A stretch of DNA of 39,804 bases from positions 1 through 39,804 of the IMG/VR virus record IMGVR_UViG_3300005095_000026, one strand, 5' to 3'. Positions 2,058 to 25,327 of the stretch are shown piece by piece. The notes beneath the pieces were generated by a model. That model did no database searches, had not been told where the DNA came from, and was given only the letters and a program-made list of their open reading frames with translations. The position numbers were made by a program, and so were the translations under genes. Within the stretch, counting starts at the first letter, position 1; the number at the start of each line of letters is the position of its first letter. Source of the DNA: a virus.

Positions 2058-3959
2058 CTATTCTACTCCTCTGCTTAATATTCGTCTTCTTCTTTTTGTT
2101 GTTTTTTTTATTGATGTGTGATACAGCGGTTCGCTCATCTTTTCAACATCTCTTGGACATAGCTCATAGGCTGCTTTTGCATAAACCCTTATGTCTGTTG
2201 CCTCATTTCTCTTTCTCGCAGGATTTAACCATCTTCCTGTCTCATCCTGTACCTCTACAGTAAGCTGCTCAAAATATGATCTATCATAGAGTCCTTTATT
2301 GTCACTTCCGTATAGCTCTTCATTTTCGTTCTCTTCTTTGTATGGAAAGTGGCAGTACCCTGGACCTTTTTCTGTAAGAGCCAGATTTGCATAAAACTCA
2401 TCCTTTATCATGTTTACTCCGACCTGATAAAATCTTGTGTCATATTTGTTTTTACTAGGCTGCTTGTTTACAACAGGTGCATCCACAGGTTTTGCTCCCT
2501 TTATGGCATACACTCTCTTTGCATACTTCTTTTTACAATACCTGCTAACTGCCAGTGTTCTATGCCCTCCTGTATCTATAGCAGCTGCATATATCTTCAT
2601 ACTGTTTCCACACTCATGAACAAATGTGCTGTTTAGATAACTATCAAGTAGATCTTCGGTATCTTTAAGATTTGGATCCGACCTGATGATATATGTCTCT
2701 ATACTCCAAGTCTCACCATGTTTGCCGATCCCTAAAACCTCGATCTCGTACCTGTCATCTTGTGTATCTACTCCAGCAACAAGCAGATATACACCTTCAG
2801 GCACCTGGGCTTTGTACTTTTCTCGTCTATCCATAAGATCATGATGTTTGATCTTGACAGATGTATAATCCTCCTCCCATGGCTGAGCATCAAGAGTATT
2901 TTTCCAAGTTCTCATCTCCGAACTGTTTCCAGCGTTCATAAGCTTCTTGGCCTCTAAAAAGTCTTGAAATATCTCTCTCCAACTAAGCCATCCGATCGGA
3001 CTATAATAACTTGGCACTCTTCTGCTAAACACACTAGGATGAACTGGTTTTGCCGTAGGAAAATATCTGGCTCCATTCTCTTCTGCCATCATCCAAGTTT
3101 TATACTTCTCCTCTATCATAGATCCGCAATGCGGACACACAAAAAACACTTCGCTCTCTAAAACATACTCTTTACTATACTCAAAGTGAAAATGCTCAAA
3201 CTCAAACCGCACCATATTCTCTTTTGTCTGTTTGCCCACATGTCTTGGCGTACAGTGCGGACATGGCATGTAATAATGTTCTTGATTTCCCCTGAGATAG
3301 TTTTTTAATATCTTTGATTTTCTTTTTGTAGTCGGTGTGGAGTTAGAATATATCTTTCTTTTTCGTCCAAAACTATTGGTTCTCTTTATAGCTAACTTTA
3401 TCGGATCACCTTCCTCCCCTACCTCTTCAGGAAACCTGTCACAGTCATCTAGCAATAAAATCCGAATAGAAGCATTTGCATAACTAGCTGTCGATTGAGC
3501 CCAGGCAATGTTTAAAAAACCGTTCATAAACTCTTTTAGAAAAGTACCGCCACCATCATCTTTCTGCTTTGCATCTTTAATAACTGCCAACACTTCAGGC
3601 ATCACCTGAATGGCTGGAGTTAATTTGTTTGCAGAATGATTTTTTGCAACCTCTTTGGTCATCATTAAAAGCAGTATAGGGCTTGGTACTTGCTTTATAT
3701 AAAACAGCGATATATTGTTTGCAACTTCAGAAAATCCAAGCTGGGTGCCTTTCATAACATGCTCTTCGTTTGCATATGAAAAAGGCGACATAAGTTCCAT
3801 CGATCTTTTGCAGTATGGCGTTCTGCTCACTCTATATCGCCCAGGTTCACTGGAGCCTTTTCCTGCTAAAATTCGCTCTTTTTCAGCCCATTCACAAACA
3901 TTTAGTTTTGGATCTGGTTTTATACCAGCCAAAAACCCAGTCACATAAGGACAGCTCAA
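2058..3959 (-). CDS. terL: Terminase large subunit (lambda gpA family)
   Basis: This is the packaging motor and nuclease that translocates DNA into the procapsid and cuts the concatemer. The 633 residues match the lambda gpA length. Visible elements are a Walker A-like KGTQLGFSE (about 70-78), Walker B ILLLDDCD (about 167-174), two zinc-ribbon CPHC pairs (about 233 and 275) and nuclease acidic segments AGVDTQDD (about 395) and AAIDTGGHRT. The TTG start overlaps the TGA of the small subunit and has GGGAG seven bases upstream. The gpA type, together with gpW, gpB-like portal and gpD/gpE-like head proteins, suggests cos packaging. Confidence 0.95.
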   Translation of the reverse strand: MSCPYVTGFLAGIKPDPKLNVCEWAEKERILAGKGSSEPGRYRVSRTPYCKRSMELMSPFSYANEEHVMKGTQLGFSEVANNISLFYIKQVPSPILLLMMTKEVAKNHSANKLTPAIQVMPEVLAVIKDAKQKDDGGGTFLKEFMNGFLNIAWAQSTASYANASIRILLLDDCDRFPEEVGEEGDPIKLAIKRTNSFGRKRKIYSNSTPTTKRKSKILKNYLRGNQEHYYMPCPHCTPRHVGKQTKENMVRFEFEHFHFEYSKEYVLESEVFFVCPHCGSMIEEKYKTWMMAEENGARYFPTAKPVHPSVFSRRVPSYYSPIGWLSWREIFQDFLEAKKLMNAGNSSEMRTWKNTLDAQPWEEDYTSVKIKHHDLMDRREKYKAQVPEGVYLLVAGVDTQDDRYEIEVLGIGKHGETWSIETYIIRSDPNLKDTEDLLDSYLNSTFVHECGNSMKIYAAAIDTGGHRTLAVSRYCKKKYAKRVYAIKGAKPVDAPVVNKQPSKNKYDTRFYQVGVNMIKDEFYANLALTEKGPGYCHFPYKEENENEELYGSDNKGLYDRSYFEQLTVEVQDETGRWLNPARKRNEATDIRVYAKAAYELCPRDVEKMSEPLYHTSIKKTTKRRRRILSRGVE

Positions 3960-4576
3960 CTCTGTACTCCCTCAAGAGCATATATAAGCTCTTCAACCAA
4001 CAACTCTCTTATCTGTATCTCGTCATCCATAGTGGCGATGATAGATGACATCCTTTCAGGAACATTCATAACAGCATCACGAACTTTACGACCGAGTTCG
4101 TAGGCATTTTTTTCTATCTCCTCATTTAAGCTATATTTCCCAGTCTTTATATTATAATCAAGCTGTGCCATCTTCCCAAGATAAAACTCTTTAAAAAGCT
4201 TCACCTGGTTTAGATTTTTTGGGATCTTCTCTTTTGTTGTGTCTATACCTTTTGCGGCTGCTTCAACTCTTATCTTTTCAGCTTCTTCCCGCTCTCTCTC
4301 AAGCTCTGCTTTCTCATCGTCAGTCATATCTGCTATAGTCTTATACTCTGCTTTACGATCAAAAGGAAGAGTATTTTTATCAACTCTCCTTTTTGCCTCA
4401 TTTGCTTCTCTCTGTGCATCGCGAGTTGGATCTTGATTGTCGAGGATAGCTTGTTTAGCTTCCTCAACTTTTACTTTTCCATCATAGAGAGTGATCGTGC
4501 CATCATTAACTTTTTCATTTACAAAAGTATGAGACCGACCGATAATCTTAGCAAACCGCCGCCGAGAAACTAACAA
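3956..4576 (-). CDS. terS: Terminase small subunit (Nu1-like)
   Basis: The 206-residue protein has an N-terminal helix-turn-helix (SRRRFAKIIGRSHTFVNEKV, about residues 4-23) like the DNA-recognition domain of lambda Nu1, followed by a long charged helical region and a C-terminal part expected to contact the large subunit. The TTG start at 4576 is preceded at eight bases by AGGAGG. Its TGA overlaps the TTG of the large subunit. Role: recognise the packaging site and load the motor. Confidence 0.8.
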   Translation of the reverse strand: MLVSRRRFAKIIGRSHTFVNEKVNDGTITLYDGKVKVEEAKQAILDNQDPTRDAQREANEAKRRVDKNTLPFDRKAEYKTIADMTDDEKAELEREREEAEKIRVEAAAKGIDTTKEKIPKNLNQVKLFKEFYLGKMAQLDYNIKTGKYSLNEEIEKNAYELGRKVRDAVMNVPERMSSIIATMDDEIQIRELLVEELIYALEGVQS

Positions 4577-4577
4577 A

Positions 4578-4802
4578 TCATAAACCTCCTAACTTATTGA
4601 AAAATCTTCTAACTAAATAACTTCTAATATAGCTAGATACAAAAAACATAATAGTCGAAACACTAGCTAACTCCGAACTGCTCAAAAAAACCAATCTTGG
4701 AAATATAAAATAAACAATACACCAGCCAATAATGATACCAATGATCTGATTTGTCAAAACCTCATAATGACTATGCTTTTTAAGTTGCATTTTTATACTC
4801 AC
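4578..4802 (-). CDS. Small two-helix membrane protein (DUF7220-like)
   Basis: The 74-residue protein has two hydrophobic segments (about 21-40 and 45-62) and a basic C terminus (RSYLVRRFFNKL), the pattern of small phage membrane proteins commonly next to terminase genes. It could start at GTG 4802 or at ATG 4790; both lie inside the end of the methyltransferase gene and follow a GGAG. The stop adjoins the terminase small subunit. Function unknown. Confidence 0.65.
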   Translation of the reverse strand: MSIKMQLKKHSHYEVLTNQIIGIIIGWCIVYFIFPRLVFLSSSELASVSTIMFFVSSYIRSYLVRRFFNKLGGL

Positions 4803-5478
4803 TCCAATTCACTTCATGTCCATTTATGATTATGCTATCAATCTCAGTATAATCACAATACCTCTGAACTATTGTTTGTGCATATTTTGGATCTAACTCT
4901 ATCATTCGGCATTGTCTGCCACTATTTTCACAAGCTATAAGAGTCGTGCCAGAGCCTCCAAAAAGATCAAGCACTACATCATCGCCTTTTGTATTGTTTA
5001 GTATCTGGTACTCTATCAACTCTACAGGCTTCATTGTTGGATGCAGGTCGCATACAGTATGTCTGTCAAAATTTATAACAGTAACTTGCTTCCTATCACT
5101 CGCCCAAAGATGACCAGCTCCTTCTTTCCACCCATATAAGCAAGGCTCGTGTTTCCAGTGATAATCTTGTCTGCCTATAACCATTGAGTTTTTATTCCAT
5201 ATTAAGCATTGTCTAACTTTCCATTCGCAATCTCTACAAGCTCCTCTAAAATTATAACCTTCAGAATCAGCATGCCAAATATAAAAAACAGCACCTTTTT
5301 TCATGACCGCATCAGCATTTGAAAAAGCATCTCTTAAGAATGATCTAAAAGCCACATCTTCCATACTGTCGTTTTGTATAGTCATAGCTTTATCGCTTTT
5401 GCCGACATAATCTACATTATAAGGCGGATCGGTGATAAGTTGGTCTGCCAATCCCCCCCCCCATAAGTTTTTCAACAT
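4780..5478 (-). CDS. DNA methyltransferase, catalytic half (out of frame with its ParB half)
   Basis: This part holds an amino-methyltransferase domain. The catalytic TDPPYNV comes first and the AdoMet-binding LDLFGGSGTT comes late, the beta-class order of N6-adenine or N4-cytosine methylases. In the sequence as given it is cut off from its ParB-like N-terminal half by a run of ten G residues (5453-5462). Nine Gs would join them into one 409-residue protein reading MGGGLADQ across the tract. The apparent ATG at 5478 lies upstream of the tract in the wrong frame and is unlikely to be a real start. Role: modification of phage or host DNA. State here: off unless the tract slips. Confidence 0.85.
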   Translation of the reverse strand: MLKNLWGGGLADQLITDPPYNVDYVGKSDKAMTIQNDSMEDVAFRSFLRDAFSNADAVMKKGAVFYIWHADSEGYNFRGACRDCEWKVRQCLIWNKNSMVIGRQDYHWKHEPCLYGWKEGAGHLWASDRKQVTVINFDRHTVCDLHPTMKPVELIEYQILNNTKGDDVVLDLFGGSGTTLIACENSGRQCRMIELDPKYAQTIVQRYCDYTEIDSIIINGHEVNWSEYKNAT

Positions 5479-6010
5479 CTTTTATATTTGTACTATCCCC
5501 ACATAAAAGCTTATGATTTCCAAGTTCTACGATATCGCCACTTTTTATAACTATATTTTTTTCATCAACTTCTGGAATTATATCCGCGGAGCCATCATCC
5601 TCGTCATCTTCAAACTCAATCCCAAAATCAGAAAGTTCATCCTGATTAAACCCTGTCAGTTCAAAATCAAATTCACTCTCTATTAAAAATTCAAACTCTT
5701 GTTTTAATAGTTTCTCATCAAAGCCTGTATTCATAGTGAGTTTATTATGTGCCAATATATAAGCTCTTCTCTTTGTCTCATCCAGATGTAAGAGTTTTAT
5801 AACTGGGATCTCATCCATTTCCATCTTCTTGGCAGCCAAATATCTACCATGTCCTTCAATAATTACATTATTCTCATCTAAGGCAATTGGATCATTGAAA
5901 CCAAACTCCTGTATAGATTTTACAATTTGGTCTATCTGCCAATCTGGGTGCAACTTTGCATTATTTTCAAAGCTTTTGATATTGTCTAGCTTTTCATTTT
6001 CTATCTTCAT
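5417..6010 (-). CDS. ParB-like N-terminal half of the methyltransferase (truncated by frameshift)
   Basis: Starts at ATG 6010 with AAGGAG upstream. Residues about 10-110 form a ParB/sulfiredoxin-type domain (GHGRYLAAKKM motif), common at the N terminus of phage DNA methyltransferases of about 400 residues. After MGGG the frame runs through an unrelated 11-residue tail and stops at 5417, with the true continuation in the next frame. ParB-like domains in such fusions are thought to aid DNA binding; whether this truncated form does anything is unknown. Confidence 0.85.
   Translation of the reverse strand: MKIENEKLDNIKSFENNAKLHPDWQIDQIVKSIQEFGFNDPIALDENNVIIEGHGRYLAAKKMEMDEIPVIKLLHLDETKRRAYILAHNKLTMNTGFDEKLLKQEFEFLIESEFDFELTGFNQDELSDFGIEFEDDEDDGSADIIPEVDEKNIVIKSGDIVELGNHKLLCGDSTNIKDVEKLMGGGIGRPTYHRSAL
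5453..5462 (-). repeat. Poly-G(10) tract, possible phase-variation switch
   Basis: Ten consecutive Cs on the plus strand are ten Gs in the coding strand, exactly at the junction of the ParB-like and methyltransferase domains. G9 restores one open frame; G10 truncates it. Such tracts are the classic slipped-strand switches of Campylobacter and relatives. Confidence 0.8.
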
Positions 6011-6173: not shown

Positions 6174-6926
6174 CTAAACTTTTCTGTTAGCCATCGCTCG
6201 ATCGAACTGCTTGTAGAACTCTTTGTTAAAATCTCTTTCAAATCTTTTTCTTATTGTTCTTTCAAACTCTAATCGTGGCTTCTCTTTTACTTCTTCTTTT
6301 ACTATCCAAAGGGGGAAAGCTTTACGATTTAGTATCTTTTTTGGCTTTAATTTTCTGCCAGTTTTACCTACTCGTGATCTTTTTCCTTCTGTTTTTCCTT
6401 TTGGAACATAATATATCGCTGTATCGCCATGCTTGCTCCCTATTCTTCTATTTGAGCCTGAACCTACTCTGATCGGAGCCTCAAATACTCTGTATTTTTT
6501 TTTGTTTCCAAGCATTGTTTGGGCTTTTTTCTTTGCTGCTCTATTTTTCTTTCTGCCAAAAAGTTTTTCAAAATAATGTGTAGGGACTAATATCCCTCTT
6601 CCTCCATCGGCACGGCGAAGTTCTCCACTCTCATGATCCTCTATCCAATGCTCTTGACCGCTCCCTGGTCTATCCATATAGATTGTTACTCTTAGGTTAT
6701 GTTTGTTTGGTGTAGTTTTTTTTGGTCCATATCTTCTGCCTTCTTTGTACCAGCCGTTTGAAACATCAAAAGTTTGCTCTATGTGCTTAGATACATCGCT
6801 TTGAGCTGTTGCAGCAGTATATTTTAATGCCTGTGCTGTTGCGTATGGTATTTGTTTTTTCTTTGAGTTTTCGATGTCTGTTATCATTTTATCAAACGCC
6901 CTAAGCTCTGTAAATAGATCAGCCAT
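6174..6926 (-). CDS. Basic virion-associated protein, minor tail gpZ-like (tentative)
   Basis: The N-terminal region (about residues 15-55) resembles lambda gpZ and related tail-completion proteins: a helix with YATAQALKYTAATAQ, then the HIEQTFDVSN segment. The rest is very rich in lysine and arginine. The chosen ATG at 6926 has AGGA upstream; an in-frame ATG at 6944 is possible. It lies between replication and packaging genes rather than in the tail block, which is unusual. The 163 bases after its stop hold only a weak 6-bp hairpin (6076-6095). A DNA-binding virion protein is an alternative. Confidence 0.5.
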   Translation of the reverse strand: MADLFTELRAFDKMITDIENSKKKQIPYATAQALKYTAATAQSDVSKHIEQTFDVSNGWYKEGRRYGPKKTTPNKHNLRVTIYMDRPGSGQEHWIEDHESGELRRADGGRGILVPTHYFEKLFGRKKNRAAKKKAQTMLGNKKKYRVFEAPIRVGSGSNRRIGSKHGDTAIYYVPKGKTEGKRSRVGKTGRKLKPKKILNRKAFPLWIVKEEVKEKPRLEFERTIRKRFERDFNKEFYKQFDRAMANRKV

Positions 6927-7140
6927 GTGCATATTTCCTAACAATCTTTAATGCCGATTCCCATTTGAAGGCACACTTTGAGCCTTGATAGCGATGAGGC
7001 TTTAAATCTTTTCCTATCCACTCAAATATTCCTTTATTAAATACTCCTACAGCGTAGGTGTATTCGCTTGGTAAATTAAGAAAGTCTATAACTATATCTC
7101 CTTGTCGATGGTCTCTGCAGTAATTAGGATCTAATGTCAT
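6919..7140 (-). CDS. Hypothetical small protein
   Basis: The 73-residue protein overlaps the end of the helicase-loader gene by four bases (ATGA) and runs eight bases past the start of the next gene. It contains several aromatic residues (W, Y, F) and no membrane segment. I do not recognise the family. The coupling supports that it is real and part of the replication operon. Confidence 0.6.
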   Translation of the reverse strand: MTLDPNYCRDHRQGDIVIDFLNLPSEYTYAVGVFNKGIFEWIGKDLKPHRYQGSKCAFKWESALKIVRKYAHG

Positions 7141-10568: not shown

Positions 10569-10601
10569 TCGCTATCGCTCCGCACTACAAAAACACAGAG
10601 G
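10569..10601 (-). repeat. VR-flanking block shared by both targets (VP2 copy)
   Basis: These 33 bases are identical to 23803-23835 beside VP1 and absent next to the TR. They encode the last residues and stop of both targets plus 17-18 bases beyond. This is where the initiation-of-mutagenic-homing signal of DGR targets is expected, together with the GC-rich end of the VR. No convincing hairpin is visible. Confidence 0.75.
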
Positions 10602-11373
10602 CACGACCGCCCACATTGTTGCTAGAGTTACTGCGGGCATAGTCCAGAGCAAGAGAGAACCCACCAGCGAGCGAACTGTAGTACCAAAAACCGCCGACTA
10701 GACAAGTGAGATATTTTCCCATAAATGAGCTACCATATATTTTCAAACTTGTAAGCTTCTCTAAGTTCGTATCTTTATAATTTGAAAAATCGTATGCTGA
10801 CTTGCTTGATAGCGTTGTCAGATCTATTTTCTTTTTTAGCTTTTTTATACTTTTCCCATCATGCGTGTATCCCAAAGCAACTTCCCAAAAATTTTTTTTA
10901 AAAAATACCCCATTTTTTTTGCCATTGTGAGAATTAATTTTTCTCTTTTTGTGTTTTTTGGATATAGCAGATAGCATACTATAAATCTTTACTGTTGTTA
11001 GGAAAAAGTCGCTTCCTATGCTTTTAGGGGCATCTATCATATCTGCGAAACGATTATCAATGCAACCATATATATTTGTAACTGGATTTGTGTCAGAGTC
11101 TGTTGTTGCAGGATCGAGATCTCTTTTTGAGACAAATACACCATTTTCATTTGCTCCTGGATATTTTGCTACAAATACAGCGTTTACTTCTTTTTTTGCA
11201 TTTAAAAAAACATTTTTGTATTTTTTAGTTTTAGGGAAACACACATATATACTCCCCAAATTATCTATATAATTTCCATAGTTGTCATGATCTTTTTCGT
11301 ATGTCCCCTCTTGTGTCTTTAAATAATCAGGAAGAAATTCCTCTTCAATAGTGCCTATTCCGTCTTTTGCCAT
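10585..11373 (-). CDS. Second DGR target, variable protein VP2 (C-type-lectin fold)
   Basis: The 262-residue protein is a compact paralogue of VP1: shared DHDNYGNYI (about 28-36), SIGSDFF (118-124), a FWEVA remnant of the FGE-type motif (162-166) and the same C-terminal variable repeat (about 223-258) ending NVGGRASVFL. Compared with VP1 it lacks the first 125 or so residues and a mid-domain cysteine-rich segment of about 45 residues, and that region is lysine-rich. DGR variable proteins use a C-type-lectin-like fold to display randomised residues. Starts at ATG 11373 with AAGGAGG. It lies in the early/integration block, 12.7 kb from the RT, so a virion role is not obvious. Confidence 0.88.
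   Translation of the reverse strand: MAKDGIGTIEEEFLPDYLKTQEGTYEKDHDNYGNYIDNLGSIYVCFPKTKKYKNVFLNAKKEVNAVFVAKYPGANENGVFVSKRDLDPATTDSDTNPVTNIYGCIDNRFADMIDAPKSIGSDFFLTTVKIYSMLSAISKKHKKRKINSHNGKKNGVFFKKNFWEVALGYTHDGKSIKKLKKKIDLTTLSSKSAYDFSNYKDTNLEKLTSLKIYGSSFMGKYLTCLVGGFWYYSSLAGGFSLALDYARSNSSNNVGGRASVFL
10602..10707 (-). repeat. Variable repeat VR2 (remote DGR target)
   Basis: 106 bp aligned without gaps to the TR at 23282-23387. There are 13 differences, every one at a T of the plus strand, that is an adenine of the coding-strand template. This is the signature of adenine-specific mutagenic retrohoming. VR2 and VR1 differ from each other as well, so they were diversified independently. Confidence 0.93.
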
Positions 11374-21655: not shown

Positions 21656-22206
21656 AAAATTTCCTTTATCTCGTCAATGGTGCTGTTTTTGTCGATGTTT
21701 TTTGCTTTTTGCAAAAACTGTTCTATATCTATGCCTTTTTTTATCATATTCTCAAGTTTGCTTCGTATCTCGTTTAACAATATGACATAATCAGCTGCTA
21801 CAGATTTAGCCTGTTCGTTTGCGTTTATGATCGCTTCGTTTGTAGCTGTGTCATATTTCCCCTGTTTTGCAAATTGATACATATACTCATAGATCTCATT
21901 TTGCACATCTATGTACTTATCAGTCAAACTTTGCTTGTCCGCGAGCATCTCTTTTAGCCCTTCTGCTTTTTCTACAAAAAGAGTTTGAAGCTTTGACATT
22001 TCGTATTTAAACTGATCGCTCTCTTTTATAAGCTCTGTAAATTCATCTGCGGTTATCTCTTTACCATTTTTTTGCAGTGCTAAAAGTGCATAAAACTCCT
22101 CGTTTGAAGCATTGCAAACTACTGCTGCACCTGTGCTGTATTCTTTTGTAAAAGGCTCTTCAAACTGCTTGTTTAAAAACCCTGTAAAACTTATATAGCG
22201 ATACAT
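21652..22206 (-). CDS. Hypothetical helical protein coupled to the DGR reverse transcriptase
   Basis: The 184-residue protein starts at ATG 22206 inside the end of the RT gene (16-base overlap) with AAGGAAG upstream. The last two thirds form long helices (about 60-175). No family recognised. It could be a tail-fibre chaperone for the variable protein or an extra DGR component; only the coupling supports this. Confidence 0.6.
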   Translation of the reverse strand: MYRYISFTGFLNKQFEEPFTKEYSTGAAVVCNASNEEFYALLALQKNGKEITADEFTELIKESDQFKYEMSKLQTLFVEKAEGLKEMLADKQSLTDKYIDVQNEIYEYMYQFAKQGKYDTATNEAIINANEQAKSVAADYVILLNEIRSKLENMIKKGIDIEQFLQKAKNIDKNSTIDEIKEIF

Positions 22207-23420
22207 AAATCTTCCTTTTTTAATATATTTTGATAGTGTGGTATAGTTGCTGTATTTTTAGCATGTTCCAAAAGAGAAGTTATGGACTCTCTATTTTTTA
22301 ATTTAACTGCTTTTTTAAACTTATACATGGAGTGTTTTCTAACAAATTTTTTACTCTTCCATGTGCGATATCCGACAAAATTTATACCACGCTTGATCTT
22401 TGCTATAGTCCAATGTGAAAGTTCTAAATTTAATCTTTCTTTTATGAGCTTTTCTAAGGTGTCTTTGTGTTTTTTTGCTTCGTTTAGTGTTAAGCCGATA
22501 AGTATAAAATCATCGACATATCTCACATAGGAGTTCACTTTCAGCACTCTTTTAACAAAGTGGTCAGTTTCATTCATGTAGATAGAAGCGTAAATTTGGC
22601 TTAAAAGATTTCCTATCGGTATGCCTGTGTCTCCATCCATCTTAGCAAATTCACACATTAATTCTACAAACTTTTCATCTTTGATCTTTTTCTTAAAAAG
22701 TCCTCTTAAAATATCTCTATCTATGCTGTAAAAATACTTTTTTATGTCAAGTTTTAGATAGTAAAGCTCTCCGCTGTACTTTCTCATCTCTTTTTGAGTA
22801 TATCTACTGGCTTTATGTGTACCTTTGCCTTTTCTACAAGCATATGCATGATCAATGAAACTTTTGTCAAATATTTCATAAATTTCTTTATAGATAGCGT
22901 GTTGCACTACCAGGTCTCTAAAATGAGGAGCATTAATGACTCTTTTTTTAGGTTCATATACTTCAAATTGTCGATAAGGTTTAGGTTTGTAAGTACCATC
23001 TTTTAATTCGTCATGCAAGTCTGCTAAATTTTGCCCTAAATTTATCTCAAACTCGTAAGTGTGCGGCTTTTTTCTTTTGCCTTTTCGTGCTATCAGATAC
23101 GCTTTGTGAAGATTTTCTAATGTAAAAGTTTTATTATATAAATTTCCAACTCTTTTGGAGGTGCTTTGATTTTTGACATTGCTACTCAAAAAAGCACCTT
23201 GATTGATTTCGCTTATCGCAGGACAGCATATCCCTCTATTGCCAGTATTATCATTTGATATTTCAGGATTGGCTATACAGTCACGACCGCCCACATTGTT
23301 GTTAGAGTTACTGCGGTTATTGTTCAGATTAAGAGTGAACCCACCAGCGATCGAACTGTTGTTCCAATTACCGCCGACTAGACAAGTATGCATGTCAATA
23401 TACTGCCCTTGATTTCTCAC
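22191..23420 (-). CDS. DGR reverse transcriptase
   Basis: Copies TR RNA into adenine-mutagenised cDNA that replaces the VRs. RT motifs are clear: LKLDIKKYFYSID (catalytic Asp about 225), the DGR-typical IPIGNLLSQIYAS (about 267-279) and YVDDF (about 301-305). Start choice is unusual. GTG 23420 has AAAGGGG five bases upstream and overlaps the avd stop (GTGA), but translation from it runs in frame through the TR, giving 409 residues. TTG 23189 with AAGGTG seven bases upstream gives the 332 residues usual for the family. A TTG at 23447 has no ribosome site. The family's RTs normally start after the TR. Confidence 0.93.
   Translation of the reverse strand: MRNQGQYIDMHTCLVGGNWNNSSIAGGFTLNLNNNRSNSNNNVGGRDCIANPEISNDNTGNRGICCPAISEINQGAFLSSNVKNQSTSKRVGNLYNKTFTLENLHKAYLIARKGKRKKPHTYEFEINLGQNLADLHDELKDGTYKPKPYRQFEVYEPKKRVINAPHFRDLVVQHAIYKEIYEIFDKSFIDHAYACRKGKGTHKASRYTQKEMRKYSGELYYLKLDIKKYFYSIDRDILRGLFKKKIKDEKFVELMCEFAKMDGDTGIPIGNLLSQIYASIYMNETDHFVKRVLKVNSYVRYVDDFILIGLTLNEAKKHKDTLEKLIKERLNLELSHWTIAKIKRGINFVGYRTWKSKKFVRKHSMYKFKKAVKLKNRESITSLLEHAKNTATIPHYQNILKKEDLCIAI
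23282..23387 (-). repeat. DGR template repeat (TR)
   Basis: 106 bp between avd and the RT catalytic region, near-identical to the ends of VP1 and VP2. It holds 28 adenines on the coding strand, many in AAC and AAT codons; 20 of the 28 differ in at least one VR. It lacks the conserved block that follows each VR, diverging right after GGGCGGTCGTG. It is in the same reading phase as the RT frame. Confidence 0.95.
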
Positions 23421-23803
23421 ATTTTCCCCTTTATCTTTTGAATCCAAGAGCCAATCATTCGACCGATTTCATCAACGAGTTTAGAGATAGCGAGATATCT
23501 GTGTTTAGGCTTTACAGTTGCATCGGTCTTGCCGTTTTTGTATGCAAAATACCCAAGTTCATTTGCGAGATACAGCTGCATACGCAACTTCTCATGCGAA
23601 ATATCAAGATCGCTCAATGTTGTTTTTTTATAGTATTTTTTATGACATTCAGTTATTAAATCATAAACATGATACGCATTTTGTCGTATCTGCAACGCCA
23701 AAGCATACTTTTCGTGCTTTGGAAAATGGTTTAAATATATATTTAATAATTTTATCATTTCCATGTACTTCCTATTAAGAATCACTTCGTGCTTCTGTGC
23801 CAT
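23417..23803 (-). CDS. avd: DGR accessory variability determinant (Avd)
   Basis: The 128-residue basic, all-helical protein fits the Avd four-helix bundle that forms a pentamer, binds RT and TR RNA and is needed for mutagenic retrotransposition. It lies in the standard position between the VR-bearing gene and TR/RT. ATG 23803 follows the VP1 stop by 15 bases, and its GGAG ribosome site lies within the block shared with the remote VR2. Its stop overlaps the possible GTG start of the RT frame. Confidence 0.85.
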   Translation of the reverse strand: MAQKHEVILNRKYMEMIKLLNIYLNHFPKHEKYALALQIRQNAYHVYDLITECHKKYYKKTTLSDLDISHEKLRMQLYLANELGYFAYKNGKTDATVKPKHRYLAISKLVDEIGRMIGSWIQKIKGKM

Positions 23804-23835
23804 CGCTATCGCTCCGCACTACAAAAACACAGAGG
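23803..23835 (-). repeat. VR-flanking block shared by both targets (VP1 copy)
   Basis: 33 bases identical to 10569-10601: last codons and stop of VP1, then the avd ribosome-binding region. Absent beside the TR, as expected for a target-only homing signal. Confidence 0.75.
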
Positions 23836-25327
23836 CACGACCGCCCACAGTGTGGCCAGAGTTACCGCGGGAATTGTACAGATAAAGAGTGAACCCACCA
23901 GCGAGCGAACCGCTGCTCCAATTACCGCCGACTAGACAAGTCATATCTGTTCTTAAATATCTGTAAATACCATCATTCCCAAATTCTGTAGTACCGCCGC
24001 TGCTCACGCCAGTTGCTGCAGGAATAGATAAAGCAGTTCTTTTGTAGCTTATAGAGTTTTTATCGTTACTAAATTCAAAAACTTGATTTGCTCCATTCCC
24101 TAATCTTATCCAACCATTGTTGTCACTAACCAGGTCAGATATGTCGATATCATCATAGTTGTTGTAGTCGTAAGCACTATCTTCTGTTAAAGTTGCTATA
24201 TCTACAGACTCTTTTAATATTTTGAAATTTGAGCTGTCTCTGGTAAAGCCGCTTGCGACTTCCCACATGTTTCCATTCAGATCAGCGACTCCACAGTTTT
24301 GACCATTATGTGTTGTTTTTGCAAAGTTTGTGGCTGACCCTGTTTTTCCACAATTACTGTATCCCGAAGCTTCGTAAACAACAGAGTTATCGTTTGTGTC
24401 TTTTAGTGCGTTGTTATTGCAGCCTTTTGGTAAGTATGGTGCGACATCTTTAAAAGCACATGTTGCAATCGTTCCTGCGTCCGCATGTGCTTTCGCTAAC
24501 CGCATCAGCATCGAGTAAACAAAGATCGGAGTTAAGAAAAAATCATTTCCTAAACTTTTCGCAGCGGTATATAATTCATCGTATCTATTCTCACTACATC
24601 CATTAATATTTGCGACTGGATTATGATCGGCGTGGGTAGAAACTGGATCTCTGCTTTTTATACTTGCGAAGTAACCGTTATTATTAGATCCTTGATATTT
24701 TGAAACAAATATTCCTGCTTTTTCCACTCCTCCATTAAGAAAAGCTCTTTCTATCACATAGCCATCTTTTTTATGAGTACTAATATAGTATGTATTTCCT
24801 ATAATTTTAAAATAATATTTAGGGATAAAAACAAATACGGATCCGGACATTGGATGGATATAATTGCCGTAGTTATCATGATCGACCTGATAAGTTCCTG
24901 CCATCGACACTAAATAACTAGGGAGATCATGCTCTGGGCAAATGCCTACTCCAAAGCCGATCTTTCCAGTTATCCCGATATCATAGTATTTGACACCTTG
25001 GATTTTTTCATCTATCTCGTCCATAGAATATGTTGCTTCTTCAGGGATAACTACACTCTCCATCACCTCTATCTTGTCATTTATCTCTATTAAAGCGTTA
25101 TTTGCAGCATTGTTAACGATGTCCGCGGCTGAAGAGACTTCATCTATGAGTGTATTCGCCTCTTCTTTGAAAATATTCAGCTTCGCTATAAAATCTACGA
25201 TATCTTGCACAAAAGTCGGTATCCATAGCATAAAGCTGTTTCTTTGCTGTAGCCATTCTGGGGTATCGCTTTTTGCATCAACTGGCGGCGGCGGAGTTAA
25301 GTTTTGATCTATATCTGATATTGCCAT
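23819..25327 (-). CDS. DGR variable protein VP1, tail receptor-binding protein
   Basis: The 502-residue protein carries an N-terminal tail-attachment region with helices (about 25-110), then a C-type-lectin domain of the formylglycine-generating-enzyme type with the signature DLNGNMWEVASGF (about 349-361), and ends in the variable repeat (about 463-498) with NTVGGRASVFL-like conserved edge. This is the design of the Bordetella phage Mtd and related proteins, where diversified residues form the ligand surface. It directly follows the tail gene 25328-26176 and begins the DGR cluster. Many cysteines in the middle may form disulfides or bind metal. Confidence 0.9.
   Translation of the reverse strand: MAISDIDQNLTPPPPVDAKSDTPEWLQQRNSFMLWIPTFVQDIVDFIAKLNIFKEEANTLIDEVSSAADIVNNAANNALIEINDKIEVMESVVIPEEATYSMDEIDEKIQGVKYYDIGITGKIGFGVGICPEHDLPSYLVSMAGTYQVDHDNYGNYIHPMSGSVFVFIPKYYFKIIGNTYYISTHKKDGYVIERAFLNGGVEKAGIFVSKYQGSNNNGYFASIKSRDPVSTHADHNPVANINGCSENRYDELYTAAKSLGNDFFLTPIFVYSMLMRLAKAHADAGTIATCAFKDVAPYLPKGCNNNALKDTNDNSVVYEASGYSNCGKTGSATNFAKTTHNGQNCGVADLNGNMWEVASGFTRDSSNFKILKESVDIATLTEDSAYDYNNYDDIDISDLVSDNNGWIRLGNGANQVFEFSNDKNSISYKRTALSIPAATGVSSGGTTEFGNDGIYRYLRTDMTCLVGGNWSSGSLAGGFTLYLYNSRGNSGHTVGGRASVFL
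23836..23941 (-). repeat. Variable repeat VR1 (local DGR target)
   Basis: 106 bp aligned without gaps to the TR with 13 differences, all at template adenines. The variable codons replace Asn by Ser, Tyr, Gly, His or Thr and Ile by Leu, while the GGFTL and VGGR framework is kept. Confidence 0.95.

Follow-up and report, generated by a model that had tools for sequence, protein, structure and literature searches.

The window, a stretch of 39,804 nucleotides, is an entire IMG/VR virus record and comes without a host genome. On its minus strand, a methylase gene in two parts lies between genes for tail and terminase proteins:

6174–6944, minus strand: minor tail protein Z-like gene (flank)
5417–6010, minus strand: ParB-like N-terminal half, the 197-aa product of the G10 state; weak ParB_N match; phrog_498 positions 33–220
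5453–5462, minus strand: G10 homopolymer, the proposed switch; encodes a glycine turn directly ahead of methylase motif IV; with nine Gs the two halves would share a frame
5419–5430, minus strand: codons of catalytic motif IV, DPPY, 22 nt past the tract
4780–5478, minus strand: methylase half of the N6_N4 (beta-class) type, out of frame with the ParB-like half; PF01555, E 2.5e-26; phrog_498 positions 215–442
4578–4802, minus strand: DUF7220 gene, overlapping the methylase end
3956–4576, minus strand: small terminase subunit, phrog_57 (flank)
2058–3959, minus strand: large terminase subunit GpA (flank)

The tract and both halves are observed directly. The run of ten Gs is on the coding strand and the plus strand shows ten Cs. 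No other G or C run in the window exceeds six. Dinucleotide shuffles give an expectation of 0.19 G8 matches per window; three were observed, a count never reached in the shuffles. The ParB-like frame (197 aa) and the methylase frame (232 aa) overlap at the tract in different frames. Hence, when recomputed, coordinates and frames bear out the original prediction of two halves broken at ten Gs. The same prediction held that nine Gs would give an intact enzyme of 409 residues. The span 4780–6010 is 1231 nt and removing one base leaves 410 codons, which is 409 residues and a stop, so this figure is correct. A phase-variable gene should carry a homopolymer, within its coding frame, whose length sets the ON or OFF state. 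The G10 gene does so, with a tract length known from one assembly only.

The PHROG 498 profile covers the two halves contiguously, so they are parts of a gene from a single known family. Motif IV (DPPY) is ahead of motif I (FxGxG), the order required of a PHROG 498 ParB-like/beta-class methylase. By these sequence features, the window gene encodes a predicted phage enzyme in which a ParB-like half is fused to a beta-class DNA methylase. In a predicted model of one relative (L235, mean pLDDT 88) three glycines sit in a helix-strand turn and the strand leads into DPPY. The solved folds nearest to this model are CcrM and M1.HpyAVI.

By protein similarity, and ignoring the tract, we chose 80 viral loci and 59 genome loci. 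In 13 of these loci, runs of G7 to G15 occur ahead of DPPY at this site. The loci total 1.09 Mb and contain 45 G/C runs of at least seven. Of these 45 runs, 13 fall within the one 60-nt site, at a rate 55 times that of the remaining sequence. We also scanned IMG/VR for G8 positioned 6–36 nt ahead of DPPYN codons. The pattern was found in at least 120 contigs; controls gave 7 (G8 after DPPYN, the mirror), 22 (A8) and 1 (C8). Recurrence is thus a direct observation. Among the carriers are Streptococcus equinus, Pseudoramibacter porci and Sutterella wadsworthensis, all cultured, together with Methylobacillus and Rikenellaceae MAGs. In S. equinus Sb05, the host of Javan213, the tract is G8 (L085). 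A pattern search of genomes detected the tract in 1 of 398 Bacilli, 1 of 391 Clostridia and 0 of 298 Campylobacteria. Poly-G switches had been described in the original prediction as a hallmark of Campylobacter relatives. Given the carriers above, the methylase tract is not confined there.

We built a quick maximum-likelihood tree from 116 methylase halves. Its 11 sequences with a tract require eight changes, and at least four are forced by well-supported branches. Each change could be a gain or a loss, and the tree includes some long branches. The three sister sequences nearest to the window gene have no tract. Among the matches listed, 58 of 73 ON copies with a tract have a GD-to-DPPY linker of 20 residues, as do 93 of 110 copies without a tract. 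Linker length is therefore the same with and without a tract. Apparently, existing codons were turned to G by substitution and the protein was not lengthened. Tract-less relatives frequently have one or two glycines at the site. Elsewhere in a methylase gene, L088 has another G8 run (position 1306), ahead of VFYIWHAD codons. In L144 and L147 (Streptococcus phages Javan447 and Javan476; positions 1973–1992) the methylase is annotated as two adjoining genes. We considered Javan447, Javan476 and Javan492, Streptococcus prophages with the methylase annotated in two pieces, as broken switch copies and rejected them. Their S. dysgalactiae relative, Javan128, lacks a tract (LMNGELAD). In Javan447 and Javan476, the gene is split some 0.9 kb after its start, far beyond motif IV.

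Among the matches listed, tract length ranges from G8 to G18 in 121 copies, the window included. Of these, 78 are in frame, 29 are out of frame and 14 could not be resolved, mostly because contig ends cut them. In-frame lengths are over-represented (78/107, p=7e-17 against one third, among the matches listed). Length also differs, as seen directly, between near-identical phages. L156 and L228 have G10 (ON) and G11 (OFF), respectively, with a single indel over 10,036 aligned bp. L178 and L224 have G10 and G8, with two indels over 8,747 bp. L214 and L248 have G10 (ON) and G9 (OFF), with a single indel over 2,853 bp. In all three pairs, whose contigs come from separate records, A/T homopolymers of six or more are identical. 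The pair L158/L204 was left out of the indel comparison as the tract failed to align. Length polymorphism among close relatives, with both frames represented, is a further property of phase-variable genes; it was found in the relatives and not in the window phage. A third property is OFF alleles free of decay. Among the matches listed, both halves are fully open in 28 of 29 OFF copies and the remaining copy is truncated by a contig end. Where changes suffice for the calculation, pN/pS for the methylase half is 0.02–0.12 in comparisons involving OFF copies. Decay is therefore absent from the OFF copies of relatives, which are recent or transient.

These data bear on an error of sequencing or assembly, whereby the real tract would be nine Gs and the gene plainly intact. 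Homopolymers this long are prone to errors, and in-frame lengths are commoner in relatives. However, an error leaves the recurrence of a slippery tract at a single site unexplained. Nor does it fit near-identical contigs, from separate records, that differ at the tract while their other homopolymers match. Nine Gs would itself be a slippery run. We consider an error unlikely.

One phage (L047 and L050) with a G10 ParB-methylase tract also has an m5C methylase in which a run of G15, at position 1967, closely follows the PCQ motif. Hence, we scanned for the pattern in m5C methylases. At least 120 contigs have G8 at 6–24 nt past GGFPCQ; the mirror control gave 9. Judged by the downstream motif, and among the matches listed, 84 tract copies are in frame and 28 are out. 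Near-identical m5C pairs also differ in length, for example L391 and L414 (G10 ON versus G9 OFF). The pair L356/L411 was not counted as a case of slippage since the difference is a substitution. In the m5C methylases L316–L433, two frames are often open at once past the tract, over 150–200 codons. The same tract pattern is therefore present in two unrelated enzyme classes. Across beta-class ParB fusions and m5C methylases, in phages of several host phyla, poly-G switches have probably been acquired repeatedly at the turn by catalytic motif IV. Phase-variable DNA modification would then be a widespread phage strategy and no bacterial speciality.

The run could instead be neutral. A turn that tolerates glycine might drift to poly-G, become hypermutable by accident and switch without benefit. 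One or two glycines are indeed common at the site in tract-less relatives. Yet drift is hard to square with a 55-fold local enrichment that involves G, not C or A. It is also at odds with the tree, where the trait changed repeatedly, with the constant length of the linker and with the recurrence of the pattern in m5C methylases, an unrelated class. We consider a neutral run as unlikely as an error.

G runs are potentially slippery for polymerases or ribosomes. Slippage in transcription or translation would produce the short and full proteins together, at a set ratio, with no heritable switch. Purifying selection on both halves, regardless of frame, agrees with this. However, a programmed shift would hold one frame relation, and in relatives the halves are in frame or out in either direction. 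The excess of in-frame lengths also argues against slippage during expression, and we regard it as quite improbable. A decaying pseudogene would account for the frame broken in the assembly but is very improbable, as each half has an open frame and matches the family, and OFF relatives have no decay.

Hence, the reading we favour for the window gene is that of a phage methylase subject to slipped-strand phase variation, with an OFF length in the assembly; its probability is about 0.82 on sequence evidence. Runs of changing length recur at one site, which suggests that the run serves phages as a heritable switch, turning the marking of their own DNA on or off. The original prediction of a phase-variable methylase stands at the level of the family, given the recurrent site, the length polymorphism in near-identical phages and intact OFF copies under purifying selection. 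For the window phage itself, switching is a proposal. Replication slippage would gain or lose a G in the tract. Nine Gs, or another count in that frame, would yield the full methylase; with other lengths the protein would end shortly past the ParB-like half. A phage or prophage population would then be a mix of methylating and non-methylating members. Such a mix could hedge between two kinds of restriction enzyme, one cutting DNA that is unmethylated and the other DNA that is methylated. As these two kinds favour opposite methylation states, this may be one reason why a switch could pay. For the window phage, we infer slippage, methylation and a benefit; escape from host restriction might follow.

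In Sulfurimonas phage SNW-1, the genes for minor tail protein Z and the small and large terminase subunits are contiguous. By comparison, the window has the methylase and DUF7220 genes placed between the minor tail Z-like and small terminase genes. The best terminase match of the window is SNW-1, at 45.6%, and portal homologues at 46–52% occur in three Campylobacteria genomes. Sequence similarity thus points to Campylobacterota as the likely host. In a viral scan for near kin via the terminase, only relatives at 31–34% were found, and E. coli complete genomes contain no similar DNA. Next to the methylase we saw DUF7220, terminase and minor tail Z genes, and no nuclease gene among them. The window also encodes a diversity-generating retroelement. 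Its reverse transcriptase gene is at 22191–23447 (minus strand), with a template repeat and two variable repeats at 23279–23387, 23833–23941 and 10599–10707. Each 109-bp alignment of the repeats has 14 mismatches, all at template adenines. The retroelement is the second diversity system of the window phage, beside the G10 tract.

If our interpretation is right, phage populations carry methylated and unmethylated genomes in a heritable mix ahead of any restriction barrier. This would be a bet-hedging route, discussed to date mainly for bacteria and one group of phage receptor-binding proteins. Moreover, methylome or restriction tests of such phages in a single state could then mislead, and annotations splitting these genes, or labelling them pseudogenes, could reflect one switch state. 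The tract would provide a defined site and allele pairs for testing.

The window gene shares its family and full-length architecture with the PHROG 498 phage methylases, which have an N-terminal ParB-like domain and N6_N4_Mtase (PF01555). The relatives sampled mostly lack a tract, whereas the window gene has one. A literature search, with subscription journals mostly outside its reach, found no report of a phase-variable phage methylase; novelty is thus provisional. Phase-variable methylases of bacterial restriction systems include the poly-G methylases of H. pylori (PMC12003011) and a Type IIG enzyme of C. jejuni (PMC4889913). As in these systems, poly-G slippage is proposed here, from sequence, as the on/off control of a DNA methylase. 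However, the bacterial enzymes are host genes of restriction systems, whereas ours is a phage gene with a ParB-like fusion and no nuclease gene seen adjoining. In Campylobacter Fletchervirus phages, receptor-binding proteins undergo poly-G phase variation and switching was shown experimentally (Sorensen et al. 2021, Cell Rep 35:109214, as recounted in PMC11868660 and PMC8713573). Set against those accounts, our case concerns a DNA methylase rather than a receptor-binding protein, extends to phages of several host phyla and is known from sequence rather than from experiment. Like the receptor-binding protein genes they describe, our gene is carried by a phage and would diversify the phage population through a hypermutable poly-G tract.
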